From Chitinophaga vietnamensis (GTDB lineage Bacteria > Bacteroidota > Bacteroidia > Chitinophagales > Chitinophagaceae): a stretch of DNA of 64,000 nucleotides. The stretch is taken from the NCBI RefSeq assembly GCF_902167635.1, contig NZ_CABHMS010000001.1, positions 310,001 to 374,000 of the forward strand, given 5' to 3'. A program made the position numbers and the translations under genes. Shown piece after piece: positions 10,070-50,720 of the stretch. Within the stretch, counting starts at the first letter, position 1; every line of letters starts with the position of its first letter. Under the pieces are notes generated by a model. It saw only the letters and a program-made list of their open reading frames with translations, was not told where the DNA came from and searched no databases.

Positions 10070-10188
10070 AATTTGTGGATTTATTGATTTACGGATTTCT
10101 TGATTTGTGGAAACTGTAATACCTAAAAATTTATGGCATTGCAGGTTCCACAAATCAAGAAATCCGTAAATCAATAAATCCACAAATT
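10070..10188. repeat. Octamer-phased long inverted repeat A, upstream of eboD
   Basis: Two perfectly complementary 43-bp arms (10070-10112 and 10146-10188) flank a 33-bp spacer. Each arm is a run of five 8-base units of the form TTTnnnGA (for example TTTACGGA and TTTCTTGA), with a different inner triplet in each. The right arm ends 6 bp before the eboD start, so the hairpin would form in the eboD leader RNA or in the DNA of its promoter. Confidence 0.95.
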
Positions 10189-10194
10189 TCAAAG

Positions 10195-11367
10195 ATGCTT
10201 TACGGAATATTAGCCATGGACTACATACAACAGCGATTCGACGTCAACTTCTCTTACCGGGTATGCTTTACCTCTCATCTCTTCGACCCGGCAAATGATT
10301 GTCTGTCGGCCTTCCTCGAAGAACAGGCCGTAGCGGCCTATGAAAAGAAATTACTGGTGATACTGGATCAGGGGGTGGTAAACAGCCATCCCGGCCTGCC
10401 ACAGCAGATCGCAGCCTATCTGCGCCAGGTGCGCGGTTTCCGGCTCGCGCCGGAAATACTGACCATCGCCGGCGGTGAAGGCGTTAAAAACGACCTGCCG
10501 CTATTCCTCAACCTCGTCAACGCGATCGATAAATACGGCATCGACCGCCACTCCTATGTGATAGGCGTGGGGGGCGGCTCCCTGCTCGACCTGGTCGGCT
10601 TCGTGGCCGCCGTATCGCATCGTGGCGTGAAACATATCCGTATCCCTACCACCGTGTTGTCTCAAAATGATTCGGGCGTAGGCGTGAAGAACGGGATCAA
10701 TTTCAATGGCAAGAAAAATTTCCTCGGCGCTTTTGCGCCACCACAGGCCGTGTTCAACGACAGCGATTTCCTGACTACGCTGGACCCGCGCGACTGGCGC
10801 TCCGGCATGGTGGAAGCCGTAAAGGTAGCCCTGATCAAAGATGCCGCCTTCTTTGAATGGATGGAAAAGGAAGCCGCCAGCATCACCGCCGGCGATATGC
10901 CTGGTATGCAATACCTGATCCGCCGCTGTGCAGAACTGCATATGCAACATATCGGCGGTGGCGGCGATCCGTTTGAAAGCGGCTCTTCCCGTCCGCTCGA
11001 CTTCGGCCATTGGAGTGCGCACAAGCTGGAACAGCTGACCAACTTCGATTTGCGGCATGGTGAAGCAGTATCGATCGGCGTGGCGCTCGACAGCGTATAT
11101 TCGTACCTGTTAGGATGGCTCAGCGAAGGCGATATGAAGCGCATCATCCAGGTGCTGAAACATATGCAGTTGCCCGTCTGGCACCCCCTGCTGCAAAAGC
11201 AGGAGGGTAGCGAATCTCCCGTGATCGCCGGACTGGAGGAATTTCGCGAGCACCTCGGCGGACAGCTCACCATCTCCCTGCTGCGCGCCATCGGTAAAGG
11301 CGAAGAAGTACATCATATGGATACCGCATTGCTTTACCAGGCCGCGGACATCTGCAAAAATCTCTGA
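10195..11367 (+). CDS. eboD: EboD, 3-dehydroquinate-synthase-like sugar phosphate cyclase
   Basis: 390 residues; ATG at 10195, with a second possible ATG at 10216. The sugar phosphate cyclase core is clear: NAD-binding GVGGGSLLD near residue 122, RIPTTVLSQNDSGVGVKNG near 155, NFLGAFAPP near 180, metal-binding Glu in SGMVEAVK and the two metal-binding His in DFGHWSAHKLE and LRHGEAVSIG. In true AroB the central motif is usually QVDSSVGGK; the QNDSGVGVKNG version here points to a divergent cyclase, related to valiolone-type enzymes, that closes a sugar phosphate into a cyclitol. This is the EboD role; the exact product is unknown. Its stop is 2 bp from the eboE start. Confidence 0.92.
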   Translation: MLYGILAMDYIQQRFDVNFSYRVCFTSHLFDPANDCLSAFLEEQAVAAYEKKLLVILDQGVVNSHPGLPQQIAAYLRQVRGFRLAPEILTIAGGEGVKNDLPLFLNLVNAIDKYGIDRHSYVIGVGGGSLLDLVGFVAAVSHRGVKHIRIPTTVLSQNDSGVGVKNGINFNGKKNFLGAFAPPQAVFNDSDFLTTLDPRDWRSGMVEAVKVALIKDAAFFEWMEKEAASITAGDMPGMQYLIRRCAELHMQHIGGGGDPFESGSSRPLDFGHWSAHKLEQLTNFDLRHGEAVSIGVALDSVYSYLLGWLSEGDMKRIIQVLKHMQLPVWHPLLQKQEGSESPVIAGLEEFREHLGGQLTISLLRAIGKGEEVHHMDTALLYQAADICKNL

Positions 11368-11369
11368 TA

Positions 11370-12584
11370 ATGCAAACAGCATATGGCCATCTCACCTATT
11401 GTACCAACATACATCCGGGTGAAAAATGGAGTGATCATTTCCAGCAGCTGAAAAAATATATTCCCGCAATAAAGCAGCAGGTATCGCCTGCACAGCCCTT
11501 TGGCATCGGGCTGCGATTGGCCAACAGCGCCAGTCTTGAGCTGGCCAAAGAAGAAAACCTGCAAGCCTTTCAGCAGTGGTTACAAGAACAGCAATGCTAT
11601 GTGTTCACGATGAATGGTTTCCCTTACGGCGGCTTTCATGATACCGTTGTGAAAGACCAGGTGCATGCGCCCGACTGGACCAGCGCCGATCGCGTAGCCT
11701 ATACCATCCGTTGCTTCCGCCTGCTGGCGGCCCTTTTGCCGGAAGGTATGGAAGGCGGCATCTCCACCTCGCCGCTATCGTATAAATATTGGTGTAACCG
11801 CTGCGCAGAAGAAATGGCATCGGTTACCGAAAGTGCAACGCTCAACATTTTACTGGTAGTAGAGCAGCTGGTGCGCATCCGCCGTGGTGGCGGCCCACTG
11901 CTGCATCTCGATATAGAGCCCGAGCCCGATGGCCTGCTGGAAAATACCACTGAATATATCGATTGGTACTTCCGGTACTTGCTAGCGGCAGGTGTTCCGT
12001 TTCTGATGGATAAATTTAAGGTAGATGAAGAGGCAGCCTCGGAGATGCTCCGTTCGCATGTACAGCTGTGTTACGACGTATGCCACTTTGCGCTGGAATA
12101 CGAGGCGCCGCAGCGCGTGCTGGAACGTATCCGTCACCACGGCCTGAAGGTGGGCAAGCTGCAGATCAGCGCTGCCCTCAAAGCAGACCTTACAACGGAT
12201 AAGGATATACGAAAAAAAGTAATCGACGGCTTCCGGCAGTTCAATGAGCCGGTATACCTGCACCAGGTGATCGCCCGCAAACAGGACGGTGGCCTGATCC
12301 ATTACCCTGATCTGCCGCAGGCACTGGAGGATGCCGATAATGAAGCTGTGGCTGAATGGCGCTCACATTTCCATGTGCCTGTTTTCCTCGACCATTACGA
12401 GGTGCTGCATTCTACACAGGAAGATATCCGGCAGGTGCTGGCCATCCAGCGGCAGCAGCCTTTCACCGCACATCTTGAAGTGGAAACATATACCTGGGAC
12501 GTATTGCCTGCTCCGCTCAAGGAAGAGATGGGAATATCCATCGCCCGTGAACTGCTATGGATCAGGCAGCAGTTGGAATTGTGA
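11370..12584 (+). CDS. eboE: EboE, TIM-barrel metabolite-traffic protein
   Basis: 404 residues, starting 2 bp after eboD, so translation is probably coupled. The sequence fits the xylose-isomerase-like TIM barrel family called EboE: FTMNGFPYGGFHDTVVKDQVH near residue 76, HLDIEPEPDGLLENT near 172, the YDVCHFALEYE segment near 235 and a C-terminal LEVETYTWDVLP. Acidic and His residues at barrel strand ends (HLDIEPE, YDVCHF, FLDHYE, LEVETY) suggest a metal-dependent epimerase or isomerase active site. No reaction has been assigned to EboE. No export signal. Confidence 0.92.
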   Translation: MQTAYGHLTYCTNIHPGEKWSDHFQQLKKYIPAIKQQVSPAQPFGIGLRLANSASLELAKEENLQAFQQWLQEQQCYVFTMNGFPYGGFHDTVVKDQVHAPDWTSADRVAYTIRCFRLLAALLPEGMEGGISTSPLSYKYWCNRCAEEMASVTESATLNILLVVEQLVRIRRGGGPLLHLDIEPEPDGLLENTTEYIDWYFRYLLAAGVPFLMDKFKVDEEAASEMLRSHVQLCYDVCHFALEYEAPQRVLERIRHHGLKVGKLQISAALKADLTTDKDIRKKVIDGFRQFNEPVYLHQVIARKQDGGLIHYPDLPQALEDADNEAVAEWRSHFHVPVFLDHYEVLHSTQEDIRQVLAIQRQQPFTAHLEVETYTWDVLPAPLKEEMGISIARELLWIRQQLEL

Positions 12585-12630
12585 AACGGGAGTTTTAGTT
12601 TTATACCGGAATAGTAACAGCGCGTAATTT

Positions 12631-13995
12631 ATGAGAAAGACAGTGGTTATCGATGTAGTAGGGCTTTCTTCTTCCCTGCTGGAACACATGCCCTTTTTAA
12701 ATGCCTACACCCGGCAACGGCATCTTGCAACGGTAACGCCCATGTTACCCGCTGTTACTACTGCCGTGCAAAGTACTTATCTCACCGGTCAGTGGCCCAG
12801 TGAACATGGTATCGTAGGCAATGGCTGGTACGACCGCACCGACTGTGAGATCAAATTCTGGAAGCAATCGAACAAGCTGGTAGACGCGCCCAAGATCTGG
12901 GACCGCGCCCGCAAGCTGGATCCGTCTTTCACCGTATCGCAGATGTGCTGGTGGTATAACATGTACGCCAATGTGGACTACTCGCTCACGCCGCGCCCCA
13001 ACTACCTTTCCGATGGCCGCAAAGTGCCGGATTGCTATACCACGCCGGATACCCTGCGCGATTACCTGCAGGAGGAATTAGGGCAGTTTCCCCTGTTCAA
13101 CTATTGGGGGCCTACCGCTAATATCAAGTCTACACAATGGATCGCAGATGCGTCCATCCTCACGGATAAAAGATATAATCCTACCCTCACATTTATATAT
13201 CTCCCGCACCTCGATTATTGCCTGCAGAAATTTGGACAGGATGTAAGCCGCAACAGTAAAGAGATTGCGGAGATAGATGCCGTGTGCAAACAACTCATCA
13301 CTTACTATCAGCAACAGGATTGCAATGTGATCGTGTTATCAGAATATGGTATCACGAATGTGAATAATCCGGTGCATCTCAACAGGATACTGCGCCAGGA
13401 AGGTTTGCTGGCATTGCGGGTGGAGCGCGGCCTTGAGCTGCTGGACGCCGGCGCCTCCAAAGCCTTTGCCGTAGCGGATCACCAGATTGCGCATATCTAT
13501 ATCAACGATCCTTCCTGCTACAAGAAAGTGCGCGGCATACTTGAAAATGTGCCGGGCGTACAGCTGGTACTGGACCGTGAAGGCAAGCGGCAACATCACC
13601 TGCATCACCAGCGTAGCGGCGACCTCATAGCCGTGGCAGACGCCAGCAGCTGGTTCACCTACTACTATTGGCTGGACGACAATAAAGCGCCGGACTTTGC
13701 GCGCATCGTGGATATCTTCCGCAAACCAGGATATGATCCGGTAGAGATGTTCATGAACCCTGCCGATCCTTTCATCAAGCTGAAAGCGGCCGGCAAGCTG
13801 CTTAAAAAGAAACTCGGCTTCCGTTACCTGATGAACGTGATCCCGCTGGATGCTACGCTCATCAAGGGTTCCCACGGCCGACTGGAAGAAAATGCCGCCT
13901 ACCATCCCGTAGTGATCAGCAACGAACCTTTCACACAAAACCAGTTGCAGGCAACCGATGTATATGATGTTATCTGGAATCAGCTGGTGAAATAA
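12631..13995 (+). CDS. eboF: EboF, alkaline-phosphatase-superfamily (nucleotide pyrophosphatase-like) protein
   Basis: 454 residues, 46 bp after eboE. The phosphatase-superfamily core is visible: IDVVGLSSSLL at the N-terminus in place of the usual VxxDG metal site, the nucleophile Thr region LPAVTTAVQSTYLTGQWPSEHGIVGNGWYDR (residues about 40-70), YLPHLDYCLQKFG, VIVLSEYGITNV, and KGSHGRLEENAAYHPVVI near the C-terminus carrying metal-binding His residues. This is the last gene of the six-gene ebo set. It probably removes or transfers a phosphate-linked group on the ebo metabolite. No signal peptide, so a cytoplasmic location is expected. Confidence 0.93.
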   Translation: MRKTVVIDVVGLSSSLLEHMPFLNAYTRQRHLATVTPMLPAVTTAVQSTYLTGQWPSEHGIVGNGWYDRTDCEIKFWKQSNKLVDAPKIWDRARKLDPSFTVSQMCWWYNMYANVDYSLTPRPNYLSDGRKVPDCYTTPDTLRDYLQEELGQFPLFNYWGPTANIKSTQWIADASILTDKRYNPTLTFIYLPHLDYCLQKFGQDVSRNSKEIAEIDAVCKQLITYYQQQDCNVIVLSEYGITNVNNPVHLNRILRQEGLLALRVERGLELLDAGASKAFAVADHQIAHIYINDPSCYKKVRGILENVPGVQLVLDREGKRQHHLHHQRSGDLIAVADASSWFTYYYWLDDNKAPDFARIVDIFRKPGYDPVEMFMNPADPFIKLKAAGKLLKKKLGFRYLMNVIPLDATLIKGSHGRLEENAAYHPVVISNEPFTQNQLQATDVYDVIWNQLVK

Positions 13996-14007
13996 AAATA
14001 CACACGC

Positions 14008-14208
14008 ATGTTCAAATGGCCTGCTATCCTCCTTTGCTGTTTACTGCTTGCATCGCAGGGGCGCTCGCAGGATACGGCATTTCTGCTATTGTATGATGCC
14101 GTCAATTATACCATTCATCATAAACACGCGCGACAGCTGGATCAGCGGGCAGGCAACTTGCAGTTGTCTTTTGCTCCAGGTAATATTTCCATGGTTTATT
14201 CCTTCTGA
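14008..14208 (+). CDS. Small exported hypothetical protein, possibly a truncated remnant
   Basis: 66 codons starting 13 bp after eboF. The first 21 residues (MFKWPAILLCCLLLASQGRSQ) form a credible Sec signal peptide, unusual for a chance frame. The rest (DTAFLLLYDAVNYTIHHKHA and a short polar tail) has no family I recognise. A REP-like palindrome cluster begins about 85 bp after the stop, so this may be the 5' end of a longer exported gene that was cut off. It could also be a chance open frame. Confidence 0.4.
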   Translation: MFKWPAILLCCLLLASQGRSQDTAFLLLYDAVNYTIHHKHARQLDQRAGNLQLSFAPGNISMVYSF

Positions 14209-14293
14209 ATCTTTCAGCCATACACTTCATACACTATACATGCTTGAAACAGGGAGTATCCTGCTAGTATCTACGGCTTTAACAGGTTGTATA

Positions 14294-14390
14294 AATCTAT
14301 CGCCCCCTACGGGGCTAGATGTTGGTAGATCGCATTTGTTCCCCGGGTTACACCCGGGGCTACCGAGCTATCGCCCCTACGGGGCTGGAT
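14294..14390. repeat. REP-like cluster of GC-rich palindromes
   Basis: Three hairpins lie side by side: one on GCCCCCTACGGGGC at about 14302-14316, one on CCCCGGGT-tac-ACCCGGGG at 14341-14359, and a third on CGCCCCTACGGGGC at about 14371-14384. The first and last are near copies of each other. Such palindromes with the core CCCCTACGGGG are a dispersed repeat type common in Bacteroidota intergenic regions. The frame that crosses them encodes only a proline- and glycine-rich artefact. Confidence 0.8.
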
Positions 14391-14490
14391 AATAATTTGG
14401 GGATTTTTTGATTGACGGATTTTCGAATTTAAATGCAGGCTTAGTAGTCCAAATTCGAAAATCCGTCAATCAAAAAATCCCCAAATTATT
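14391..14490. repeat. Octamer-phased long inverted repeat B
   Basis: Perfect 40-bp arms (14391-14430 and 14451-14490) around a 20-bp spacer. The arms contain 8-base units of the TTTnnnGA type (TTTGGGGA, TTTTTTGA, then two variants starting TTGA and TTTT). It directly abuts the REP-like palindromes on its left, and lies about 70 bp before the oxidoreductase gene. Confidence 0.95.
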
Positions 14491-14513
14491 TCCCGATTAT
14501 TTATCTATTTTCA

Positions 14514-14528
14514 TGCAACCGATTGTAA
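14514..14528 (+). promoter_or_regulatory. LacI-type operator candidate upstream of the Gfo/Idh gene
   Basis: TGCAACCGATTGTAA: half sites TGCAA and TTGTA around CCGA, an imperfect palindrome typical of LacI-family repressor sites. It is 33 bp upstream of the start codon. The same box read on the opposite strand occurs at 20764-20777, and a perfect-half-site version at 20842-20855. Confidence 0.6.
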
Positions 14529-14560
14529 TTCTTAACCAAATAACTATTCAATAAGGCGTT

Positions 14561-15898
14561 ATGAAAAGAAGAGATTTTCTGAAAACCGGTACCATGGCAG
14601 GTTTGGGGGCTGGTTTGACCTATCTCAATTTCCCGGTTTTCGGGAAGAATGCACCGAGTAACAAGATCGTATTAGGTGTAATGGGGGTGAACTCCCGCGG
14701 TAATTGGCTGGCGCAAACAGCGGCCAAGCTGCCCGGCGCCGAAATAGGCTACATCTGCGACGTAGAAGACGGCGCTATTGAAAAAGGCCTCAAAGCCGTT
14801 GCAGGCGCGCAAAGCCGGCAACCCACCGTGATCAAGGACATCCGCAAGCTGCTGGAGCGCAAAGATTTTGATGCCCTGATCGTGGCCACGCCCGACCACT
14901 GGCATGCGCCTGCCGCCATCATGGCCACTGCCGCAGGGAAACATGTGTATGTGGAAAAGCCATGCGCCCACAACCCGCACGAGGGCGAGCTGCTGGTGGC
15001 TGCCGCCGCCAAATACAACCGTCATGTGCAAATGGGCAACCAGCGCAGGTCCTGGCCTAACCTGCAACAGGCAGTGAAAGAAGTGAAGGAACAAGGCATC
15101 ATCGGCAAACCCTACTATGCAAGAGGGTGGTATGTCAACGATCGCAAGCCGATCGGTATCGGTAAAAAAATTCCCGTGCCCTCTACGCTTGATTGGAACC
15201 TGTGGCAAGGCCCTGCGCCCCGCCGCGATTACCTGGATAATATCGTGCACTACAACTGGCACTGGCGCTGGCATTGGGGCACTTCAGAAACCTGCAACAA
15301 CGCCACGCACGAACTGGATTGCATGCGCTGGTTCCTCGACGTGGAATTCCCGACCAAGGTAACTTCCGCCGGCGGCCGTTATGCCTATCCGAAAGACGAT
15401 TGGGAAACACCGGATACACAAACGCTCAATTTCGAGTTTGAAGGCGGCAAGGCTATCTCCTGGGAAGGCCGCAGCTGTCATCCTTACACGCTCGAAGGCA
15501 GTGGCCGCGGCTTCGCCATCTTCGGCGAAAACGGCGCCCTGTACAACTCCGGCGGCGATAACTACAAGATCATCGATACCAAGAATAAAGTAGTGAAAGA
15601 AGTGAAGCAGCAGGAAAGATCCATACAGAGTGTAACCAATACCGTTAGTCCGGCCGGCGAATTTTACGACGCTGTACATATCAACAATTTCCTCGAAAGC
15701 ATCCGCGGCAACGCTAAACTCAACTCGGAAATAAACATCGGTTACCGCAGTACGCTGTTATGCCTGTTGGGCAACATTGCGCAGCGTACCGGGCGTGCGC
15801 TCAATACCGATCCTGCCAATGGTCATATCCTCCATGATGCCGACGCGATGAAGCTGTGGCAACGTGAATATGAAAACGGTTGGGCGCCTAAAGTGTAA
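14561..15898 (+). CDS. Gfo/Idh/MocA-family oxidoreductase with Tat signal
   Basis: 445 residues. The N-terminus MKRRDFLKTGTMAGLGAG is a twin-arginine signal, so the folded, cofactor-loaded enzyme is exported to the periplasm. The Rossmann start is VLGVMGVNSRGNW (residues about 37-49), followed by the family motif YVEKPCAHNPHEG with the catalytic EKP near residue 130 and a C-terminal Asp/His region (HELDCMRWFLD near 248). Family members oxidise or epimerise sugars with NAD(P). Exported versions are known to work with DUF1080 hydrolases in 3-keto-glycoside breakdown. A DUF1080 gene lies 3.5 kb downstream under what looks like the same operator. Confidence 0.95.
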   Translation: MKRRDFLKTGTMAGLGAGLTYLNFPVFGKNAPSNKIVLGVMGVNSRGNWLAQTAAKLPGAEIGYICDVEDGAIEKGLKAVAGAQSRQPTVIKDIRKLLERKDFDALIVATPDHWHAPAAIMATAAGKHVYVEKPCAHNPHEGELLVAAAAKYNRHVQMGNQRRSWPNLQQAVKEVKEQGIIGKPYYARGWYVNDRKPIGIGKKIPVPSTLDWNLWQGPAPRRDYLDNIVHYNWHWRWHWGTSETCNNATHELDCMRWFLDVEFPTKVTSAGGRYAYPKDDWETPDTQTLNFEFEGGKAISWEGRSCHPYTLEGSGRGFAIFGENGALYNSGGDNYKIIDTKNKVVKEVKQQERSIQSVTNTVSPAGEFYDAVHINNFLESIRGNAKLNSEINIGYRSTLLCLLGNIAQRTGRALNTDPANGHILHDADAMKLWQREYENGWAPKV

Positions 15899-15911
15899 TG
15901 ATTTGCGTGGC

Positions 15912-15942
15912 ATTCACCACGGGCTTACGGCTCGTGGTGAAT
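15912..15942. repeat. Inverted repeat after the oxidoreductase gene
   Basis: 10-bp stem ATTCACCACG (15912-15921) with CGTGGTGAAT (15933-15942) and an 11-base loop. It may act as a terminator, though no T tract follows. The motif of a CACCACGGGC start with a CGTGGTG return resembles dispersed palindromes in Bacteroidota, so it could be a REP-like unit. Confidence 0.6.
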
Positions 15943-16100
15943 CTGCTCAAATCCGCTACCCTACTAGCTTTATAGGCTGTGAATAAATATAATATCTTGT
16001 TATCTCCCATAACTTATAGTTATCGTTATTATTTGTCTGCGGTACCTGCTTCCCCTACATTTGTACTACCTGTAATTTTTTTATAACCAACCAGCAACCA

Positions 16101-16883: not shown

Positions 16884-16908
16884 ATCAACGAATCTTATTC
16901 GTCATCTT

Positions 16909-33050: not shown

Positions 33051-33165
33051 AATATTTTTTGATTTTTGATTTCCTGATTTTTGAATTTGGCGCTTTGAAT
33101 TTGCTAACTTATTCATTGCGAATATAATAGTTCTTAAATTCTCAAATTCAAAAATCAAAAAATTC
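33051..33165. repeat. Octamer-phased inverted repeat C (imperfect), between pheT and the coiled-coil gene
   Basis: An arm at 33051-33089 pairs with 33143-33165. The inner 14-15 bp (33075-33089 and 33143-33157) match perfectly. The left arm carries about 15 extra bases, equal to two repeat units, compared with the right arm. Units are TTTTTTGA, TTTCCTGA and close forms. It fills the gap between the pheT stop and the next start on the minus strand. Confidence 0.85.
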
Positions 33166-37730: not shown

Positions 37731-39077
37731 ATGAAACAACTGTATCTGAAGTATAAAGGTTATTACAAAGACAATTTCAGTTTAGCCTATCCCGTAGTGA
37801 TCTCCCAACTCGGGCATACACTGGTTGCATTATCCGACAGCCTTATCATCGGGCATACCGGCAAAGTACCGCTGGCAGCGGTTTCGCTGGGCAACGGTCT
37901 CTTTTCTATCTTCATGGTTACCGGTATTGGTATGTCGTACGGGCTCACACCGCTCATCGCACAGGAGAATGGCCGTGGCAACAAAAGCGCTATTGGGCAT
38001 CTGCTCAGTCATAGCCTGATCATCAATATGATGGTGGGCCTATTGTTATCGGCCGTCATTTATTTTGGCAGCGGCTATATGCAGGTGCTGAACCAGGAGC
38101 CGGATGTTGTGCAACAGGCAAGGCCCTTTCTGCGTTACCTCGGTTTCTCCTTCATCCCGCTGATGTTGTTCCTCACCTTCAAGCAATTTGCGGAGGGGCT
38201 GGGCTTTACACGCCAGGCGATGAATATCAGTATTATCGGCAACGTGATCAATATCCTCATTGGCATCACGTTGGTGTACGGTCTGTTCGGCCTGCCCCGC
38301 ATGGGCGTGGTGGGCGTGGGTATTGCCACTTTCACCGACCGTTTGATCATGGGTATTACGATGGCTTTTTATGTGTTGAAGTCGCCACGTTTCAAGCCTT
38401 ACCTTTCCAGTTTTGGTTTTTCAAATCTGAAGGCGGCGGCTATCAGAAAAATTTTAGGTATTGGTACGCCGGTGGCCTTGCAATATATTTTTGAGGTGAG
38501 CGCTTTCAGCGGCGCTGCCGTGATGGTGGGCTGGATGGGCGCTGCAGAACTGGCGGCGCATCAGATCGCATTGAGCCTGGCATCCATGACGTATATGATG
38601 GCCAGCGGCATCTCTGCGGCGGCGGGCATCAAAAGCGGCAATAATTTCGGCAAGCGCGATTTCAGGGAATTACGTTTATCGGCTATCGCCAGTTATCATA
38701 TGGTGCTGGTGTTGATGGGCACTGCTGCGCTGGTATTTATGGTGGGCAGGCATCTGCTGCCTGCTTTGTATATCAACGATCCGCAGGTGATACAGATCGC
38801 AGGAAATTTATTGGTGATCGCTGCCTTCTTCCAGTTGTTCGATGGCATGCAGGTGGTGGGACTTGGTATCCTGCGCGGATTGGGCGATGTACGCATTCCA
38901 ACGGTGATCACTTTGCTGGCCTATTGGGTGTTCGGTATCCCGCTGGGTTACCTGTTAGGCATCAAAATGGGCTTTGGTGTGGAAGGCGTGTGGTGGGCGC
39001 TGCTACTGGGTTTGCTAACCGCATCCCTACTCCTGTTTGCAAGGTTTCATACAAAAACAAAGAATTTGATTATTTAG
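37731..39077 (+). CDS. MATE-family multidrug/Na+ efflux transporter
   Basis: 448 residues with twelve hydrophobic segments in two homologous halves. Typical MATE phrases are SLAYPVVISQLGHTLVALSDSLIIGHTGKVPLAAVSLGN at the N-terminus, GLGFTRQAMNISIIGNVINILIG in helix 5, and in the second half QVVGLGILRGLGDVRIPTVITLLAYWVFGIPLGYLLG. The family exports cationic compounds using a Na+ or H+ gradient. The substrate is unknown. The stop codon falls inside the left arm of inverted repeat D. Confidence 0.96.
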   Translation: MKQLYLKYKGYYKDNFSLAYPVVISQLGHTLVALSDSLIIGHTGKVPLAAVSLGNGLFSIFMVTGIGMSYGLTPLIAQENGRGNKSAIGHLLSHSLIINMMVGLLLSAVIYFGSGYMQVLNQEPDVVQQARPFLRYLGFSFIPLMLFLTFKQFAEGLGFTRQAMNISIIGNVINILIGITLVYGLFGLPRMGVVGVGIATFTDRLIMGITMAFYVLKSPRFKPYLSSFGFSNLKAAAIRKILGIGTPVALQYIFEVSAFSGAAVMVGWMGAAELAAHQIALSLASMTYMMASGISAAAGIKSGNNFGKRDFRELRLSAIASYHMVLVLMGTAALVFMVGRHLLPALYINDPQVIQIAGNLLVIAAFFQLFDGMQVVGLGILRGLGDVRIPTVITLLAYWVFGIPLGYLLGIKMGFGVEGVWWALLLGLLTASLLLFARFHTKTKNLII

Positions 39078-39246
39078 TTATTTGGTTATTTTATTATTTG
39101 GATATTTGATTTAGGAATTTTCGGATTTTCGGATTTTTTGATTTTCGAATTTGGAAGAAAACCGAATTTCCCACAAATCAAAAAATCCGAAAATCCGAAA
39201 ATTCATAAATCAAATATCCAAATAATAAAATAACCAAATAGCTAAA
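39073..39246. repeat. Octamer-phased long inverted repeat D, joining MATE stop to rsmE start
   Basis: Two 71-bp arms (39073-39143 and 39176-39246) match with two mismatches, around a 32-bp spacer. The left arm begins 2 bp before the MATE stop codon and the right arm ends on the first base of the rsmE start codon. Units are eight bases long in phase, of the types TTTnnTTA outside and TTTTCGGA or TTTTTTGA inside, with one 5-base slip in between. It is the longest of the set. Confidence 0.95.
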
Positions 39247-39959
39247 TGGATTTGTCTGTTTTTTTTGCGGGAGATATTGCGGTGGATGCCAGCAGTTACA
39301 CGATGAATGAGGATACATCGAAGTATTGTATCCAGGTGTTGCGGCATGAGGCCGGTGATACGGTGTTGCTGGCAGATGGCCGTGGGCGCAGGTTTACGGC
39401 GATCATTGCTGATGATAACCGCAAAAAATGTGTGGTGAATATTTCAGCAATAACTTTGATGCCGCCGCCAACGCCGGTACTTCGTATAGCCATTGCCTTT
39501 ACCAAAAATGCGTCGCGGATAGAGTGGTTTCTGGAGAAGGCTACGGAAATAGGTATTCAGTCGATCATTCCCCTGGTGAGCCAGCGTACTGAAAAAGAGA
39601 AAGTGAAAGCAGAGCGTTTGCAAAATATATTGGTGTCGGCGATGTTGCAGTCCAAACAATACTACCTGCCGGTGTTGCAGGAGCCACAGGCATTTGAGCA
39701 GGTGGTGAAGCAGAGTAAGGATGCACAACGTTTTATTGCGCATTGTTTGCCCGAGCAGCAGCAGTCTTTACAGCTGTTAATGGAGCCGGGAAAAGATACG
39801 ATCGTGCTGATAGGGCCGGAAGGTGATTTTACGCCTGAGGAGGTCAAACTGGCGCTGGGAGCGGGTTTTGAGCCAGTGTCTTTAGGCGCCAACCGTTTGC
39901 GGACGGAGACAGCCGGTATGGTGGCTGTTGTCATGATGAACATTGTCAACAACTTGTAG
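39246..39959 (+). CDS. rsmE: 16S rRNA m3U1498 methyltransferase RsmE
   Basis: 237 residues. The N-terminal PUA-like domain has YCIQVLRHEAGDTVLLADGRGRRF, and the C-terminal SPOUT knot has AIAFTKNASRIEWFLEKATEIGIQSIIPLVSQRTEK, IVLIGPEGDFTPEEVKLALGAGFEPVSLGANRLRTETA, the S-adenosylmethionine site. It methylates N3 of U1498 in 16S rRNA during ribosome assembly. Its start codon touches inverted repeat D, so there is no room for a conventional ribosome-binding site outside the repeat. Confidence 0.97.
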   Translation: MDLSVFFAGDIAVDASSYTMNEDTSKYCIQVLRHEAGDTVLLADGRGRRFTAIIADDNRKKCVVNISAITLMPPPTPVLRIAIAFTKNASRIEWFLEKATEIGIQSIIPLVSQRTEKEKVKAERLQNILVSAMLQSKQYYLPVLQEPQAFEQVVKQSKDAQRFIAHCLPEQQQSLQLLMEPGKDTIVLIGPEGDFTPEEVKLALGAGFEPVSLGANRLRTETAGMVAVVMMNIVNNL

Positions 39960-41132: not shown

Positions 41133-41190
41133 TGCGCATAAAATATCAGGGGCCACCGTGTACGCGGTGGCCCCTGATGTTTTATGCGCA
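41133..41190. terminator. Bidirectional terminator between the secreted protein and terC
   Basis: A 14-bp GC-rich stem (41145-41158 with 41165-41178) is extended by 11 more pairs (41133-41143 with 41180-41190) that supply A and T tracts on both sides. It can stop transcription from both directions. Confidence 0.95.
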
Positions 41191-43007: not shown

Positions 43008-43019
43008 TGCGGGGGCAAA

Positions 43020-43188
43020 AATAGTCAATTACGAATTACGAATTAATAATTACGGAAATTCCCGTAGATATTAGCGAAGATCAGCCCATAAAGTGCTCAA
43101 AGTGCTTCCTAGGCCGACTGGCGCAGCGTTTCGCGTATATCTACGGGAATTTCCGTAATTATTAATTCGTAATTCGTAATTGATTATT
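43020..43188. repeat. Long inverted repeat E in the pyrD/sigma divergent gap
   Basis: Two 52-bp arms (43020-43071 and 43137-43188) with one mismatch around a 65-bp spacer. The arms use a different unit: AATTACG, seven bases, twice in a row, then AATTAATA and a palindromic-looking GGAAATTCCCG. The spacer repeats AAAGTGCT twice. The element fills nearly the whole gap between the two divergent starts. Confidence 0.95.
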
Positions 43189-43201
43189 TTTGCTGCTCAT
43201 C

Positions 43202-43720: not shown

Positions 43721-43789
43721 AAAAATTTGAGAGGGACGTGGGGGAGATGATTTCCTGCGTGCGTCTTATCAAATATATTACAACTGTAC

Positions 43790-44767
43790 ATGACATCTTC
43801 TTTTCCTGATGAGGCACTGTATACCTTGCTCTGCAAGTACCTGCTGCAAGAGGCGGACGGGGAAGAGCGTGCATGGGTAGAGGCCTGGCTCGGGGAAGAT
43901 GCCGGTAATGCCGCTCTGCTGGCGGCTTTACAGCGTGTGCTGGATACCGCAGCGGCGCAGCGCCTCACGATGCAGCCGGATACGGACAGTTCCTGGCAGC
44001 GGCTGTACAGCCAGATGGGCGTTGCTGATACCGCCACGGCTCCACCGCTGGCAGCTGTATCATCACGGCCCCGCTTCCCCTGGATCAGGGTGGCAGCGAT
44101 ACTGGCGCTGGCCCTGGGGCTCGGCTGGTGGCTCATCGCGCGGAACAGTAATAGCACGTCTTATGCCGGCCCGCAAATCGCGCGGCTGGAAGATGGCAGC
44201 AGCGTACAGTTGCAGGCTGCCTCCCGCCTGGAAGTAGCGCCAGGCTTCGGCTCCCGCAACAGGAAGGTGACGCTGAAAGGAGCCGCTACTTTCGATATCG
44301 CCGCCAATGCTGCCCAACCCTTTGTCGTGACGCTGGGGCGTACCGATGTACAGGTGCTCGGCACCCGCTTTACCGTGAACTATGAACCGGGGCAAGCAAA
44401 GCTGCAGGTACATGTGAGCAGCGGAAAGGTGATGGTGATCGATCATGAAAAGGCCGACAGCGTGGTGCTTACGGAAGGCATGTTGCTGCAGCAGGATCAG
44501 GCCAGGCCCGATTTTCGTGTAGCCGCACACGTTACCGACCCGGTGAAGAAAGCCCTTGCTTTCCATCATGTGCCACTGGAAGAAGTGCTGCATACCATCA
44601 CCGAGGTATACGATGTGCGGGTGACCGTGGAAGATACCGCGCTGCTGAAACTATCCGTCAATACAAATTTTACCGGTGAATCCATCGATGAGGTGATCAC
44701 CACCCTGGCGCTCAGCGTAGGCGCCAAATGGGAGAAAACAGGCGACAGGCAATATAAGCTGAGATAG
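43790..44767 (+). CDS. FecR-family anti-sigma factor
   Basis: 325 residues. A cytoplasmic N-terminal part with the anti-sigma-like DGEERAWVEAWLGEDAGNAALLAALQRV, a membrane helix (VAAILALALGLGWWLIA) near residue 105, then a FecR periplasmic domain with LEDGSSVQLQAASRLEVAPGFGSRNRKVTLKGAATFDIA and QVLGTRFTVNYE, and a C-terminal STN-like domain (AFHHVPLEEVLHTITEVYDVRVTVED). It passes a signal from the outer membrane receptor to the sigma factor. The TonB receptor gene follows after 48 bp. Confidence 0.96.
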   Translation: MTSSFPDEALYTLLCKYLLQEADGEERAWVEAWLGEDAGNAALLAALQRVLDTAAAQRLTMQPDTDSSWQRLYSQMGVADTATAPPLAAVSSRPRFPWIRVAAILALALGLGWWLIARNSNSTSYAGPQIARLEDGSSVQLQAASRLEVAPGFGSRNRKVTLKGAATFDIAANAAQPFVVTLGRTDVQVLGTRFTVNYEPGQAKLQVHVSSGKVMVIDHEKADSVVLTEGMLLQQDQARPDFRVAAHVTDPVKKALAFHHVPLEEVLHTITEVYDVRVTVEDTALLKLSVNTNFTGESIDEVITTLALSVGAKWEKTGDRQYKLR

Positions 44768-44815
44768 CCCGCCGCCGGCCCTATGAACTTTACATACTTT
44801 TAATTTGACCATATT

Positions 44816-47458
44816 ATGTCGTTAGCCGCAAAACTGCTCACGGCGATGCTGCTGATATGCATCCCCTTGCGCGTTTTAGGGTGGGATTGGCAAACACGGG
44901 TGACCATAGTGGTGAAGGACCAGCCCTTGCAGGAAGTGTGCGAATTGCTGGAAAAACAATATGGTATCCACTTTTCATATAGCAGGGAACTTGTCAATTT
45001 ATCCCGGAGAGTAACCTTAACTGCACATAACCGCCGCCTGAGAGGGCTGCTGGATGAGCTCTTCGCGCCCGATGCTATCCGATATACCCGCGTAGGCGAC
45101 CAACTGGTGCTACTCCCCGAAAAGCACAGTACCCGCACCATCAGCGGATATGTACAGGATGCTGCCACCGGCGAAAAATTAGTGGGCGCCACCATTTATG
45201 CACCATCCCTGCATCAGGGCACTACTACTAATCAATACGGATTTTTCAGTTTTACAACCGCCCGCGATACTGGCCAGCTCATCGTTTCCTACATTGGCTA
45301 CAACAGCGTGTTACAACCGGTGATGGAGAAAGGCAACCAGTTGCTCACCGTGGCATTGTCGCCGCTGGCCAACCTCAAAGAAGTGGTGATCACCGGTACG
45401 GATAAAAGCGGTTCGATGGAACAGGCGCCCCTCAGCAAAGTGAATATCGCCACTGCAGATATACAGTCGATGCCCAAATTATTGGGAGAAGCCGATGTGA
45501 TGCGCACGCTGCAATCCTTACCTGGCGTGGGCGGCGGCATGGAAGGCGTATCGGGCCTGCATGTGCGGGGCGGCAGTGTGGATCAGAACCTGATCCTCAT
45601 CGACGGATCGCCGGTATTTAATTTCTCACATTTCTTCGGGGTATATTCCCTGCTCAATGCCGATGTGGTGAAAACCACCGACCTGTATAAAGGCGCATTC
45701 CCGGCGCGTTTCGGCGGCAGGCTGTCGTCGGTAGTGGATATCACACTGAAGGATGGCGATATGCAGAAATTCCATGGCGATGTGGCCATCGGGCTGATCT
45801 CCGCTAAATTTAATGTGGAAGGGCCGATCATCAAAGACAAAACTTCTTTCATCGTTTCTGCCCGCCGCTCCTATCCCGACCTGATCTATAATGTTGCCTT
45901 GCGCTCGGATGATGACCTGGGCCGTGATGGCCGGTTCTATGCCTATTTTTATGATATCAATTTAAAGGTCAATCATATCTTCTCTCCCAAAGACCGCGTG
46001 TTTTTGAGCTATTACCAGGGAGAAGATAATATGTTGATACAGCAGTCGACCGATAGCGCGCGACTGGCAGACAGTACCCGTATCAATGCGCAGATGAACC
46101 GTTTCAAGATCGGCTGGGGCAATACCATTGCGGCTTTGCGCTGGAACCATGTCTACGGTCCCAAACTTTTTTCCAATCTCACCTTCAATTATTCCCGGTA
46201 TGAATTTTCTACCGAGTACGGTTATAAATATAATATTCCTGCATCCGGTGAGTTTTCTGATCAGTATGGACGGTATTCTTCACGCATGGAAAATGCGGGC
46301 GTGAAAATGGATTTCGACTACCGGCCCAATCCGGGCCATGGTATTCGTTTTGGCGGCGCCGCTACGATGCATTATTTCAAGCCGGCGATGTCGGTGTTTG
46401 AAGATAAGAGCAGTCCGGTGAAACCGCTGGATACCGCTGCGCGCGGAGCGCGTATCAACGGGCTGGAAATGTTGCTGTATGCGGAAGATGATTGGGAGGT
46501 ATCGCCGAAGTTATGGGCGAATCTGGGTGTGCATATGTCGGGATTTGCGGTAGAAGGAAGATTTTATTATTCCATACAACCCAGGCTGGGCCTGCGTTAC
46601 CTGCTTCCTCACCACTGGGTGCTGAAGGCGGCCTATACGCATATGAACCAGTATATCCATTTATTGTCGAACAATGGTACTACGCTGCCTACGGATATCT
46701 GGGTGCCTTCAACACCGCGCGTGGCGCCGATGTTATCGCGGCAGCTGGCGGCGGGCATTACGAAGGTGACTAATAACCGCCTGTTTGAATTTTCGCTGGA
46801 GGGTTATTACAAGACGATGCATAACATGATCGAATATACGGATATCGCCGGTTTTATTAGTCCGGATATGCTGAAGTGGGACCAGAAAGTGGCCGTGGGA
46901 CAGGGTTGGAGCTATGGAGGCGAAGCGATGATCTCCAAGAGAAAAGGCAGTACTACCGGCAGGATCGGTTATACTTTGTCGTGGAGCAACCGTCGTTTTC
47001 CGGGCATCAACAATGGGCATATCTTCCCTTATAAATATGACCGCCGACATGTTGTAGAGGTGGTGCTTACACAGCAGCTGGGCAAGCATTGGGAGGCTTC
47101 GGCGTCCTGGCATTTTATGACGGGATCGCCCATTACCTTGCCGGTGGCCACTTACGAGGGCACGAGCAATGCATCGCCCTGGGATCCCGGTACGGATGGC
47201 GGCGCCCCGGTAGACCGCTACAGCAATCGCTACAATGGGCGCACAGAAAATATTCACCGGCTGGATATAGGCATTACTTATACCAAACAAAAAAAGTATT
47301 GGCGCAAGAGCTGGAACTTCAGCATCTTCAATGTGTATAACCAGCCAAATCCTTTTTACTATTTTATAAAGCGGGATGCAGCAGCGCAAGAGCGCTATCT
47401 GGCCAAAGTGGTGATCCTGCCTGTTTTGCCGAGTATTACCTATTCGGTGAGATTTTAA
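44816..47458 (+). CDS. STN-type TonB-dependent receptor/transducer
   Basis: 880 residues. After the signal peptide comes an STN domain (VVKDQPLQEVCELLEKQYGIHFSYSRELVNLSRRV, residues about 28-95), which contacts the FecR protein, then a carboxypeptidase-like domain (TISGYVQDAATGEKLVGATIYAP), a plug domain with PSVGG-like LQSLPGVGGGMEGVSGLHVRGGSVDQNLILIDGSPVFN, and a beta barrel ending in SITYSVRF. It is shorter than the SusC in this window and lacks its insertions. With FecI, FecR and DUF4249 it forms a cell-surface signalling and import unit; the ligand is unknown. Confidence 0.95.
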   Translation: MSLAAKLLTAMLLICIPLRVLGWDWQTRVTIVVKDQPLQEVCELLEKQYGIHFSYSRELVNLSRRVTLTAHNRRLRGLLDELFAPDAIRYTRVGDQLVLLPEKHSTRTISGYVQDAATGEKLVGATIYAPSLHQGTTTNQYGFFSFTTARDTGQLIVSYIGYNSVLQPVMEKGNQLLTVALSPLANLKEVVITGTDKSGSMEQAPLSKVNIATADIQSMPKLLGEADVMRTLQSLPGVGGGMEGVSGLHVRGGSVDQNLILIDGSPVFNFSHFFGVYSLLNADVVKTTDLYKGAFPARFGGRLSSVVDITLKDGDMQKFHGDVAIGLISAKFNVEGPIIKDKTSFIVSARRSYPDLIYNVALRSDDDLGRDGRFYAYFYDINLKVNHIFSPKDRVFLSYYQGEDNMLIQQSTDSARLADSTRINAQMNRFKIGWGNTIAALRWNHVYGPKLFSNLTFNYSRYEFSTEYGYKYNIPASGEFSDQYGRYSSRMENAGVKMDFDYRPNPGHGIRFGGAATMHYFKPAMSVFEDKSSPVKPLDTAARGARINGLEMLLYAEDDWEVSPKLWANLGVHMSGFAVEGRFYYSIQPRLGLRYLLPHHWVLKAAYTHMNQYIHLLSNNGTTLPTDIWVPSTPRVAPMLSRQLAAGITKVTNNRLFEFSLEGYYKTMHNMIEYTDIAGFISPDMLKWDQKVAVGQGWSYGGEAMISKRKGSTTGRIGYTLSWSNRRFPGINNGHIFPYKYDRRHVVEVVLTQQLGKHWEASASWHFMTGSPITLPVATYEGTSNASPWDPGTDGGAPVDRYSNRYNGRTENIHRLDIGITYTKQKKYWRKSWNFSIFNVYNQPNPFYYFIKRDAAAQERYLAKVVILPVLPSITYSVRF

Positions 47459-47459
47459 A

Positions 47460-48320
47460 ATGATGGATATGCAACGTATTTTCGTTTATGCGGTACTGTT
47501 AGTAATGATATTGTGCGGATGTGAACGCAGGGTAGATATCAACCTGCCTTATGAGGGCGACCGGCTGGTGATCAACAGCCTGATACAGCCAGACAGTGTA
47601 GTATACGCAAGGGTAACACGCAGCATACCGGCCAATGTGTATAACGAAGGCGCATTTGCAGAGGTGCGCGATGCGGGCGTAACATTGGAAGAAGACGGCA
47701 AAGTGCTGCCGATGGCCGCTCTGCAGATCGGAGGCAATATGTGGTATGTGTCTTCACAGCCGGCAGTGCTGGGGCGGCATTATAAGATCAGCGCCAGCAA
47801 AAGTGGTCTTAGCTCCGTATACGCCGCCGATACGTTGCCGCCACCGCCGAACGTAAGCAATGCCAGCGCCCAGCGCAACAGCAGCCGTGTACGCTTTACA
47901 TTGAAGGACCGCCCCGGCGCGGCCGACTACTACCGCCTGCGCATCTTTGCCTATGGCCCTTCCGGCCAGCCGGATACCATGCGCCTTTTCCGCCTCGACC
48001 CTTCTTTCAACAATAATGTGATCGATGTCATTGCCGAAGCAAACTACACCAGCATGATCATGAGCGACGAACGTTTCGATGGCAAAACACTAACGTTCGT
48101 ACTGCAAACAAAAGACCCCATCGTAAATGCCAAGCAGCTCATGATAGAAGTGAGCGAACTGACCTACAATTCCTGGCAATACCTGAAAACAGCTTCCGCC
48201 CAGCTGGAAAACAGCGGCAGTATTGTAACAGAGCCGGTAAGGGTATTTACCAATGTAGTGAATGGTTATGGAATAGTGGGCGGCATCAATACCCGGCGCC
48301 TGGTGTTTAAGGTAGATTAA
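47460..48320 (+). CDS. DUF4249 family lipoprotein
   Basis: 286 residues, starting 1 bp after the receptor stop, so translation is coupled. The lipobox is ILCGC with Cys21. The mature protein opens with ERRVDINLPYEGDRLVINSLIQPDSVVYARVTRS, a beta-rich start shared by the DUF4249 proteins that accompany STN-type receptors. They are thought to be surface partners of the receptor, playing a SusD-like lid role, but evidence is thin. The stop codon is overlapped by inverted repeat F. Confidence 0.92.
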   Translation: MMDMQRIFVYAVLLVMILCGCERRVDINLPYEGDRLVINSLIQPDSVVYARVTRSIPANVYNEGAFAEVRDAGVTLEEDGKVLPMAALQIGGNMWYVSSQPAVLGRHYKISASKSGLSSVYAADTLPPPPNVSNASAQRNSSRVRFTLKDRPGAADYYRLRIFAYGPSGQPDTMRLFRLDPSFNNNVIDVIAEANYTSMIMSDERFDGKTLTFVLQTKDPIVNAKQLMIEVSELTYNSWQYLKTASAQLENSGSIVTEPVRVFTNVVNGYGIVGGINTRRLVFKVD

Positions 48321-48441
48321 GGATTTTCGAATTTATGGATTTTCGGATTTATGGATTTAATTGGAGCGGAGATGAACAATGTTGTTATCTCCGCTCCAAT
48401 TAAATCCATAAATCCGAAAATCCATAAATCCGAAAATCCTT
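48319..48441. repeat. Octamer-phased long inverted repeat F
   Basis: Two 55-bp arms (48319-48373 and 48387-48441), one mismatch, 13-bp loop that can pair further (AACAA/TTGTT). The left arm begins inside the stop codon of the DUF4249 gene. The outer part is made of units TTTTCGGA and TTTATGGA in 8-base phase; the inner 12-13 bp (GGAGCGGAGAT) are GC-richer, like a terminator core. Confidence 0.95.
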
Positions 48442-48652
48442 ATAATTCTGAGCCAGACAACCTCACGCGCCTTTTTCCTTTTTGCGCAAGTTGTTTTCCT
48501 GATCCGATAGCAATGCTCATTGCTGCGTGTTTACTTTTGTAATGAAAATTTTGCTGTACATATTCGTCTATTGTACCCCATTTTACTGTAAAGAGTGATG
48601 AAAAAAGTCCTGACAGCAGCTGCCACTGGCAGCTGCTGAAGGCACTAAAACC
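48442..48652. other. Intergenic sequence between repeat F and the 109-residue gene
   Basis: With repeat F this makes a 332-bp gap. I see no gene. A hairpin-like CAGCAGCTGCC-ACTGG-CAGCTGCTG at 48616-48639 lies just before the next gene and could be regulatory. Confidence 0.55.
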
Positions 48653-48982
48653 ATGTTTATGTGTAACTACCAGACTTTATATCATGGCAGCAATGGTTAT
48701 GTGATCCGTTGCCCGCGGTGCAGGAATATGCAACTGGCCTTTGGTACAACGGCTGTTAACCTTAGCAGCAGCGAGTTTGACTATTTTGCGAAGATGATGG
48801 CCCGGATGGCATCAGATGTATATCCGGAGTCCGTACAGGAAAAGATCATGTGTGTACCCCTGCCTGCTGAACAGGTGATGATGTTGCTGACACCCGCAGA
48901 AGTGGCCGCCATTGCGCAGATCACGACCGAAGTACAAGTATTGCTGGAAGCCTACGAAATCCTGGAAACCCCGCTCCCCTGA
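48653..48982 (+). CDS. Small cytoplasmic protein with CxxC motif (DUF6686-like)
   Basis: 109 residues. The N-terminal part is MCNYQTLYHGSNGYVIRCPRCRNMQLAFGTTAVNLS, with CPRC and an upstream Cys4, resembling a small zinc-ribbon-type family that I know from Bacteroidota as DUF6686. The rest is helical (EFDYFAKMMARM, VMMLLTPAEVAAIAQITTEVQVLLEAYEIL). Function unknown. The start at 48653 has an in-frame ATG two codons later, either of which could be used. Confidence 0.8.
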   Translation: MFMCNYQTLYHGSNGYVIRCPRCRNMQLAFGTTAVNLSSSEFDYFAKMMARMASDVYPESVQEKIMCVPLPAEQVMMLLTPAEVAAIAQITTEVQVLLEAYEILETPLP

Positions 48983-49014
48983 TCAAAATTTTTTTTGTTT
49001 GCTGAACTTTCTGT

Positions 49015-49049
49015 GAACATACGTGTTCTATAACGTACAAACAATTGTT
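49015..49049. promoter_or_regulatory. Two palindromes upstream of gadB
   Basis: GAACATACGTGTTC (49015-49028) has half sites GAACA and TGTTC, and AACAATTGTT (49040-49049) is a perfect palindrome; their centres are 23 bp apart, about two helix turns. They lie about 140-175 bp before the gadB start and may be operators for acid or stress control. Confidence 0.45.
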
Positions 49050-49189
49050 CGTTAATACTCATGTGGAACACCCTCAAAAGGAAATCCCATGTGCCCGCAT
49101 TCCTATTTCGTTGATCCGTTAACGTGATACATAGGTCCTGATCCCTCATGCTTATAAGTATCGTCGTTCATTTACTAAACTGGTCGTTT

Positions 49190-50599
49190 ATGCCTTTACA
49201 GTTCTTCAAACGTAAAGGGGACAATGATTTGAAGTCTGTCCCCGGTGCGGATATCTACACGTCCCCGTACATGAAAGAGGGGATTCCACTGAACACCATG
49301 CCTGAAAAGTCGAGGCTTCCCGAAAACGTATATGCGTTACTGAAAGATGAGCTGTTGATGGACGGTAACTCCAAACAGAACCTGGCCACTTTTTGCCAGA
49401 CCTGGATGGATGAAGAAGTCCATAAGTTGATGGATGATTGTATCGACAAGAACATGATCGATAAAGACGAGTATCCGCAAACAGCCGCTATAGAAGCGCG
49501 CTGTGTGTCTATCCTGGCCGATCTGTGGAACTCCCCGGAAGCGGCTACCACTATTGGCTGTTCCACTACGGGTTCCAGCGAGGCTGCCATGCTGGGCGGC
49601 TTGGCCCTCAAATGGCAATGGCGCAAGAAAAGGCAGGCGCTGGATAAACCGGCCGACAAACCTAATTTAATCTGTGGCGCGGTACAGATCTGCTGGCATA
49701 AATTTGCCCGTTATTTTGATGTAGAGCTGCGCGAAGTGCCGTTGGAAGAAGGTAAGCTTACGCTTACGCCTGAAGATGTGATTGCGCGCTGTGATGAAAA
49801 TACCATCGGCGTGGTACCCACGCTAGGCATCACCTTTACTTGTTTATATGAAGATGTAAAAGCGATCAGCCAGGCGCTGGATAAGCTGCAAAAAGATAAA
49901 GGCCTGGACATCCCAATACATGTGGATGCCGCCAGTGGCGCATTTATCGCGCCTTTCCTCACGCCGGAGCTGGAATGGGATTTCCGTTTGCCACGGGTGA
50001 AATCTATCAATGCCTCCGGCCACAAGTATGGCCTGGCGCCACTTGGCGTGGGTTGGGTAGTATGGCGCGATAAGAGCGACCTGCCAGAAGAGCTCATCTT
50101 CAACGTGAATTACCTCGGCGGCAATATGCCCACATTTGCACTCAACTTCTCCCGCCCGGGAGGCCAGATCATTGCGCAATACTACAATTTCCTGCGGCTG
50201 GGCAAAGAAGGGTACCGCGAGATCATGCAGGCGAATATGTCGCACGCGCAATACATCGCCGATGCGATCAAATCTCTGGGTTATTTCGAACTTTTCTACG
50301 ATGGCCATGGCGGCCTGCCAGGGGCGTCCTGGCGGCTAAAACCGGGCACCAATCCGGGTTTCTCGCTATATGACCTGAGCGACCGTTTGCGTATGCGCGG
50401 CTGGCAGATCGCCGCCTACCCCTTGCCTTCCAAAATGGATGATGTAGTGATACAAAGAGTTTTGGTAAGACATGGCTTCAGCCGTGATATGGCCGATCTG
50501 CTCATCGCAGATATTAAACGCGCAATCGACTATTTCGTGAAACACCCGATCACCGTGCCTTTGACAAGAGAAGAAGCAGGCGGTTACGCACATAATTAA
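49190..50599 (+). CDS. gadB: Glutamate decarboxylase
   Basis: 469 residues from ATG 49190 ([13 protein letters not shown]); an upstream ATG at 49148 would add a hydrophobic 14-residue lead that other members lack. It is a PLP enzyme of the group II decarboxylases: [34 protein letters not shown], and the PLP lysine near residue 279 in [17 protein letters not shown]. The C-terminal [11 protein letters not shown] has the tail type that closes the active site at neutral pH in E. coli GadB. It turns glutamate into GABA, using up a proton in the cytoplasm. GadC follows. Confidence 0.96.
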
Positions 50600-50604
50600 T
50601 GGGA

Positions 50605-50720
50605 GAATTTACGGATTTACGGATTTATGGATTTACGGATTTAGGGATGTAAGAATTTGTTGCGGACCTCAGTCAGAAACAAATTCTCACATCCCTAAAT
50701 CAAAAAATTCAAAAATATTT
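50605..50720. repeat. Octamer-phased inverted repeat G between gadB and gadC, with unequal outer arms
   Basis: The inner 24 bp (50638-50661 and 50678-50701) match with one mismatch around a 16-bp spacer. The left outer arm is four to five TTTAyGGA units in tandem (50607-50646), but the right outer arm (50702-50720) reads as TTTTTTGA- and TTTTTGAA-type units, in the same 8-base phase. It ends right at the gadC start. Confidence 0.9.

Follow-up and report, generated by a model that had tools for sequence, protein, structure and literature searches.

Dispersed palindromes with tandem-unit arms at gene 3' ends in Chitinophaga, and the case for arm homogenisation by template switching

Introduction

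How do long hairpins come to stand at one gene junction after another, and what keeps the two arms of each hairpin alike? The question is raised by a 64-kb stretch of the Chitinophaga vietnamensis genome (contig NZ_CABHMS010000001.1, positions 310,001 to 374,000; the whole stretch is called the window here), in which seven long hairpins have arms composed of short tandem units. A sequence-only reading had listed six of them, at about one per 9 kb, had described their arms as strings of TTTnnnGA octamers that agree almost perfectly within a site, and had proposed that one arm is repeatedly recopied from the other, the hairpins not being copies of one dispersed element. All six sites are present, two of them with weaker arms (at 50623 and 33054, both 82%), but a seventh hairpin, at 43015-43193 and built of 7-bp AATTACG units, had been overlooked. 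The density estimate agrees with the seven unit-armed hairpins of the window; over 854 kb of the source genome there are 56, or one per 15 kb.

The reading that we favour, with moderate confidence, is that dispersed unit-armed palindromes colonise the 3' ends of genes and that their arms are homogenised by template switching. Below we set out the evidence for dispersal, joint change of the arms, placement and turnover, and weigh the alternatives as the evidence on each appears.

Results

The source genome (G000, genus Chitinophaga, 6.31 Mb) was scanned along 854 kb of its contig C1 for inverted repeats, their classes and their placement, with genes predicted by a simple purpose-written gene finder; counts of classes, arms and placement refer to this stretch unless another source is named. 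It holds 94 intergenic inverted repeats with arms of at least 18, where 20 dinucleotide shuffles of the intergenic sequence give 0.1 on average, and 75 with arms of at least 24, where the shuffles give 0. Runs of three octamer units number 388 in G000, compared with 3 for a reversed control pattern. When 66 arms were analysed for periodicity, the best lag was 8 in 31, 7 in 4, 9 in 3 and 14 in 2, and no lag was significant in 26, so that the 8-bp phase is real but common rather than universal. The unit-armed classes comprise TTTnnnGA and TTATTTGR octamers, AATTACG heptamers, AGGATTnnn units of about 9 bp and CGCAAAGCAG units; the other classes are repetitive extragenic palindromes (REPs) and terminator-like hairpins. 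The octamer grammar first described is thus genuine in its 8-bp step, but it is one dialect among units of 7, 8 and about 9 bp. Arm identity is high, as claimed (class means of 0.955-0.982 for unit-armed hairpins), but it is nothing special, terminator-like hairpins averaging 0.966 and REPs 0.935. Octamer runs are paired in 34 cases and solo in 25, and by eye some unit-armed hairpins enclose a terminator-like core. An Rfam scan of the window at gathering thresholds gave no match.

Long matches to the hairpin at 48318-48442, covering at least 100 of its 125 bases with 73-96% identity, stand at 36 or more further places in G000. Of these, 33 reach 80% identity, and the three weakest may have octamers alone in common; since only 40 of 181 candidates were scored, the copy number of this subfamily, A1, is a lower bound. 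All 25 other copies that were inspected have the common core within octamer layers, and several carry an outer AGGATTACC layer. The long matches and the shared core make A1 a dispersed repeat, and the earlier claim that no such element underlies the hairpins fails. Two copies on contig C7, L321 (G000:C7:12329-12678) and L320 (C7:112139-112488), are reverse-complement twins whose matching flanks, in opposite orientation, point to a putative larger inverted duplication.

Two contig ends of G000 (C2:1-88 and C4:719061-719153) also match A1, and the assembly may break at palindromes of this type. These ends are what could be cited for an artefact of assembly or of amplification across inverted repeats, an explanation to which we give practically no weight: the same hairpin occupies the same junction in four species, including the single-contig genome G031, and placement at stop codons is strict.

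To ask whether the two arms change together, we compared 25 A1 copies over 53 pairs, leaving out the twin copy L321. In all, 94.6% of cells are Watson-Crick. In 73 cells both bases differ from those of the commonest pair, against a mean of 24.8 and a maximum of 35 in 500 shuffles, which ignore kinship among copies; these two-sided changes are spread over 17 pairs, where the shuffles reach 15 at most. The arms of orthologous hairpins also change jointly. At locus 2621589, G031 and G019 differ at two triplets, each altered in both arms; at locus b5115 the left arm is identical in four species.

Eleven orthologous sets were aligned, and nine were compared for loop inversion after exclusion of one represented by G031 alone and one facing a terminator. 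At 2549685 the G031 and G019 loops align better inverted than forward (45.0 vs 24.5). The same is seen for the G019 loop at 2621589, both against G013 (16.0 vs 7.5) and against G031 (14.0 vs 8.0), and a possible inversion separates G031 from G013 at 2692879 (18.0 vs 9.0). Loops are forward, not inverted, at 2623107, 2669273, 2716089 and b5115, and two further loci of the nine could not be aligned. Two more inversion flags arose from comparisons of unrelated hairpins and are left out of the count.

In yeast, homogenisation of arms and inversion of the spacer have been attributed to template switching by the polymerase (PMC8604942, in excerpt), and long perfect arms that change in concert have been described for mitochondrial palindromes of Nematomorpha (PMC6649704, in excerpt). 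As arm co-change and loop inversion are both published marks of template switching, the idea of recopying between arms is supported, with hairpin template switching as the best reading of joint arm change. In its strong form, that each hairpin keeps its own arms, the idea does not stand: the partner arm is nearest or tied in only 9 of 26 A1 copies, although in 25 of 26 it is closer than the median of the arms at other loci. The low rank can be a result of recent dispersal.

None of 88 hairpins with arms of at least 20 is centred inside a predicted gene, in agreement with the sequence-only reading, which placed every element in a gene junction. The 56 unit-armed hairpins lie between tandem (29), convergent (24) or divergent (3) genes, whereas divergent pairs account for 100 of all 445 intergenic regions. 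Of the 53 that have a stop codon on one side, 46 are no more than 20 bp away from it (median 1), and 21 reach into the coding end; an equally short distance to a start is seen in 5 of 32. Terminator-like hairpins are placed in the same way (20 of 22 within 20 bp of a stop; 66 of 75 when pooled with the unit-armed ones), unlike REP hairpins (1 of 6). Inverted repeats are reported to peak 3' of bacterial stop codons, with arms near terminators changing less than spacers (PMC13155455, in excerpt), so that placement alone is ordinary. The palindrome at C1:381738 extends into two convergent genes, and because it covers both coding ends the two proteins end in the same residues, KHLVI; no other of the convergent pairs listed shows this.

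This placement is as in transcription terminators, and one could suppose that the hairpins are terminators in which selection on RNA structure maintains the stem, with compensatory mutations arising step by step. Terminator-like hairpins have matched arms too, and terminator-like stems stand in sister genomes opposite 5 of 9 G031 heptamer hairpins (by eye, among those listed, in G013 and/or G019). We nevertheless consider this explanation unlikely. Of the 73 co-changes in A1, 39 are transversion pairs, which have no wobble step, and 53 of the 71 imperfect cells hold something other than G-T; nor do stepwise changes account for the loop inversions, or for a single palindrome that gives two convergent genes the same last five residues. 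The octamer class moreover does not have the form of a GC-rich stem with a T-run behind it: of 71 T-rich runs, 57 have an A-rich run within 120 bp after them, and the reverse order occurs 0 times.

The junctions of the window were then followed across relatives. At the 33054 junction, compared in 13 Chitinophaga, six genomes have a gap of 12-20 bp and no hairpin, and five have an octamer hairpin (G000, G031, G013, G019 and G078). At the 39072 junction, again in 13, four genomes have hairpins that differ from one another (G000, G031, G019 and G041), while nine have 17-60 bp with no hairpin or a short remnant. The 10070 junction measures 33 bp in G014, G040 and G059. By eye, the 43015 junction holds a wide loop flanked by long arms made of GATT-type units in seven species, and neither in five. 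For the three remaining junctions the relatives have no comparable neighbour pair or have other gene content; at 14391 no empty site could be read. Hairpins of different types may also face one another, as one octamer hairpin of G031 faces a heptamer hairpin in G019 (by eye). Growth of the arms outward on a pre-existing terminator is not supported as a general rule, because the 33054 and 39072 junctions are 12-60 bp long in hairpin-free relatives. No target-site duplication or conserved termini were seen by eye, the nearest relatives being too far for exact boundaries. In G031, one octamer hairpin is present in three tandem copies spaced 79 bp (G031:C1:2453080-2453284).

Could a transposase have brought entire hairpins into such junctions? 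The elements would then be non-autonomous, similar to miniature inverted-repeat transposable elements (MITEs) or REPINs, mobilised in trans by a transposase specific for the folded palindrome, and their arm match would be mostly inherited from the donor. This account is plausible in part, given copies up to 96% identical and whole hairpins where relatives have only 12-60 bp, but we hold it improbable. Matches of at least 80 bits to a RAYT-type gene occur in 8 of 11 octamer-rich Chitinophaga (those with at least four matches to the hairpin pattern, where matches overlap) and in 5 of 68 others, with G065, which has nine IS200-like copies, set aside (Fisher 6.7e-6, kinship uncorrected). Yet G041, G051 and G074 carry octamer hairpins and have no Y1_Tnp match. 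The G000 RAYT-type gene (L221, G000:C4:222211-222555) stands amid REP arrays (CGCCCC..GGGGCG, CTACCAATA) whose orientations are opposite on its two sides, and the 13-kb stretch around it contains no ATTTACGG, CCGTAAAT or AATTACG; this locus is an ordinary REP/RAYT system alongside the hairpins. Across 13 RAYT loci, octamer-type hairpins were found only at distances of at least 2.3 kb. At L224, L225 and L227 (in G018, G061 and G031), CCCAGGGCT..AGCCCTGGG hairpins, probably another REP family, are found at a distance of 0.4-0.6 kb from where the RAYT frame starts.

RAYT was rejected as the mover on these grounds: in G000 it sits among its own REPs, some others are trailed by REPs of the CCCAGGGCT type, and three hairpin-bearing genomes are without Y1. 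On the same grounds, the association probably reflects shared ancestry. An IS1182-type transposase (PF13751) was rejected as well; G000 has no match, nor do 10 of the 11 octamer-rich genomes, the exception being G061 with 16. A linked protein family, for which a search had been proposed, was not found among the three families tested in the genus. Even with a transposase, the co-changes and loop flips demand an additional process, and by eye there are no fixed ends. Transposons with octamer ends round a gene were also considered; by eye, the solo runs yielded one wide pair (C1:303471-303952), and it encloses REPs in a palindrome of about 440 bp (G000:C1:303492-303930). This palindrome has 116-nt arms at 98% and a 207-nt loop holding more inverted parts, and REPs are mirrored within its octamer arms.

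The octamer hairpin pattern is present in 15 of 79 Chitinophaga, 11 of them octamer-rich and four with one or two matches. Five pattern-free Chitinophaga together show one inverted repeat with arms of at least 25 in 400 kb, compared with 74 in the 854 kb of G000. Some octamer-free sisters have dialects of their own: AGAAAGC-type units in both G059 and G040, a shorter relative of these in G014 and a CTGATTACG-type in G039. In 194 genomes sampled from the family, G000 is rich, as is genus g65 in all three of its genomes (72, 62 and 45 matches), and four more have one match each. In a wider contig scan, 55 of the 80 loci listed have a hairpin (arms of at least 18 in 45; ungapped finder), and in 39 of the 80 an end of the hairpin is no more than 30 bp away from the stop codon of an open reading frame (ORF) of at least 80 aa; among these are loci from Acidobacteria, Micavibrio and Thermoanaerobaculia.

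SbcD, of the palindrome-cutting nuclease SbcCD, exceeds the cut-off in none of the 11 octamer-rich Chitinophaga, compared with 24 of 68 others (Fisher p 0.029, kinship uncorrected). None of 10 genomes has SbcC over the curated cut-off, but scores are 21-31 bits in seven octamer-rich genomes and 154-193 bits in three SbcD-positive ones. Across the family the comparison is uninformative, with 25 of 194 genomes over the cut-off and only weak matches in octamer-rich genus g65.

The unit-armed hairpins of the window are listed in Table 1. The stop codon of the MatE gene in G000 forms part of the hairpin at 39072. Two terminator-like hairpins without unit arms, at 2205-2248 and 41133-41190, are outside the present finding.

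Table 1. Unit-armed hairpins of the window, with arm lengths and arm identities.
Feature	Position	Arms	Units or setting
Octamer hairpin	10070..10188	59 nt, 92%	just 5' of the 3-dehydroquinate (DHQ) synthase gene, divergent junction (DHQ synthase by Pfam)
Octamer hairpin	14391..14490	40 nt, 100% complementary	
Weaker octamer hairpin	33054..33163	28 nt, 82%	between pheT-type gene (minus strand) and 102-aa ORF
Hybrid hairpin	39072..39247	73 nt, 97%	TTATTTGR units outside, TTTnnnGA units inside
Heptamer hairpin	43015..43193	64 nt, 95%	units AATTACG, 7 bp
Octamer hairpin of subfamily A1	48318..48442	56 nt, 98%	core GGAGCGGAGAT..ATCTCCGCTCC
Octamer hairpin, weaker arms	50605..50716	from 50623, 45 nt, 82%	pyridoxal-dependent decarboxylase gene / amino-acid permease gene junction

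Discussion

The observations presented here allow us to propose how the hairpins arise and persist. Families of palindromes, mostly of 80-230 bp and with tandem units of 7, 8 or about 9 bp layered round a core, would settle at gene 3' ends, and some junctions would acquire an entire hairpin where relatives have 12-60 bp. Inside the palindrome the DNA polymerase would fold back or switch template, so that one arm serves as the template for the other; the loop could flip, and units could slip in both arms. A palindrome could in addition extend into neighbouring coding ends. Their adjacency to stop codons and their interchange with terminators suggest that the hairpins are probably transcript 3'-end structures, and loss of SbcCD probably permits them. 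The data show directly that A1 is dispersed, where the hairpins sit, that they turn over, that arms co-change, that loops invert and that the 11 octamer-rich Chitinophaga give no SbcD match; the polymerase step, the part played at RNA ends and the permissive effect of SbcCD loss are inferred from these.

Several observations weigh against this proposal of dispersal with arm homogenisation. In 17 of 26 A1 copies an arm from another locus is nearer than the hairpin's own partner. Counted by distinct states, the co-changes are 11 transitions vs 9 transversions, and kinship among copies is not accounted for by the shuffles. Two of the 13 genomes have a palindrome of unrelated sequence at the 33054 junction, so that the same junction does not imply a homologous hairpin. 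The octamer hairpins have a T-rich 5' arm and an A-rich 3' arm (AAATCnnn), opposite to the A-tract/T-tract order of terminators. As to the nuclease, 44 of 68 octamer-poor Chitinophaga are likewise without SbcD over the cut-off, octamer-poor G007 and G050 show no arm of at least 25 in the 80 kb sampled from each, and G030 has SbcD together with two octamer hairpin matches. Because the lack of SbcD over the cut-off is common to most octamer-poor genomes too, its loss would be permissive at most.

Known systems resemble the hairpins in part. REPs and REPINs with their RAYTs are likewise dispersed, non-autonomous intergenic palindromes in many copies, and G000 possesses a REP class and a single RAYT; the hairpins differ in their tandem 7-9-bp unit arms and in adjoining stop codons, as well as in the RAYT neighbourhood without unit motifs and the hairpin genomes without a Y1 match. 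Intrinsic terminators share with them a stem-loop directly 3' of the stop codon and the same junctions in sister species, but in the octamer class the A/T polarity is opposite, a T-run is absent and the arms are several times as long. Quasi-palindrome correction and the Nematomorpha palindromes, as excerpted above, are alike in the behaviour of arms and spacers, whereas here the palindromes are dispersed, made of tandem units, located at bacterial gene ends and numerous in each genome. Repetitive hairpin elements of organelles (sponge PMC2800124, Volvox PMC2670323, Fusarium PMC7218506, all in excerpt) are also dispersed intergenic palindromes; they differ in being organellar. The nearest known route for a palindrome swap is IS1272, whose transposition replaces stem-loops and so exchanges palindromes in place (PMC5678879, in excerpt), but it requires a transposase of the IS1182 type, for which G000 has no match. 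No description of this element class was found in the literature searched, a text search with unit strings included, most subscription papers being outside coverage.

Spread might also proceed without any transposase, template switching between loci with common arm units transplanting layers or whole hairpins into gene ends. This is a tentative idea, to which we attach a low probability. If it were true, a genome would gain its own 7-9-bp dialect and renew its transcript-end hairpins, with SbcCD as a limit, and terminators would count among the mobile parts of the genome that copy themselves.

If the proposal of dispersed palindromes with template-switched arms is right, template switching works genome-wide on natural bacterial hairpins, and its marks, co-change and loop flips, can be read between species. 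Hairpins of like grammar at ORF stops reach scattered other phyla (among the 80 loci listed). Some C-termini are rewritten by palindromes that enter coding ends. Transcript-end hairpins would be replaced as whole modules, and genomes with and without SbcCD would offer a natural setting for the limits on long palindromes.

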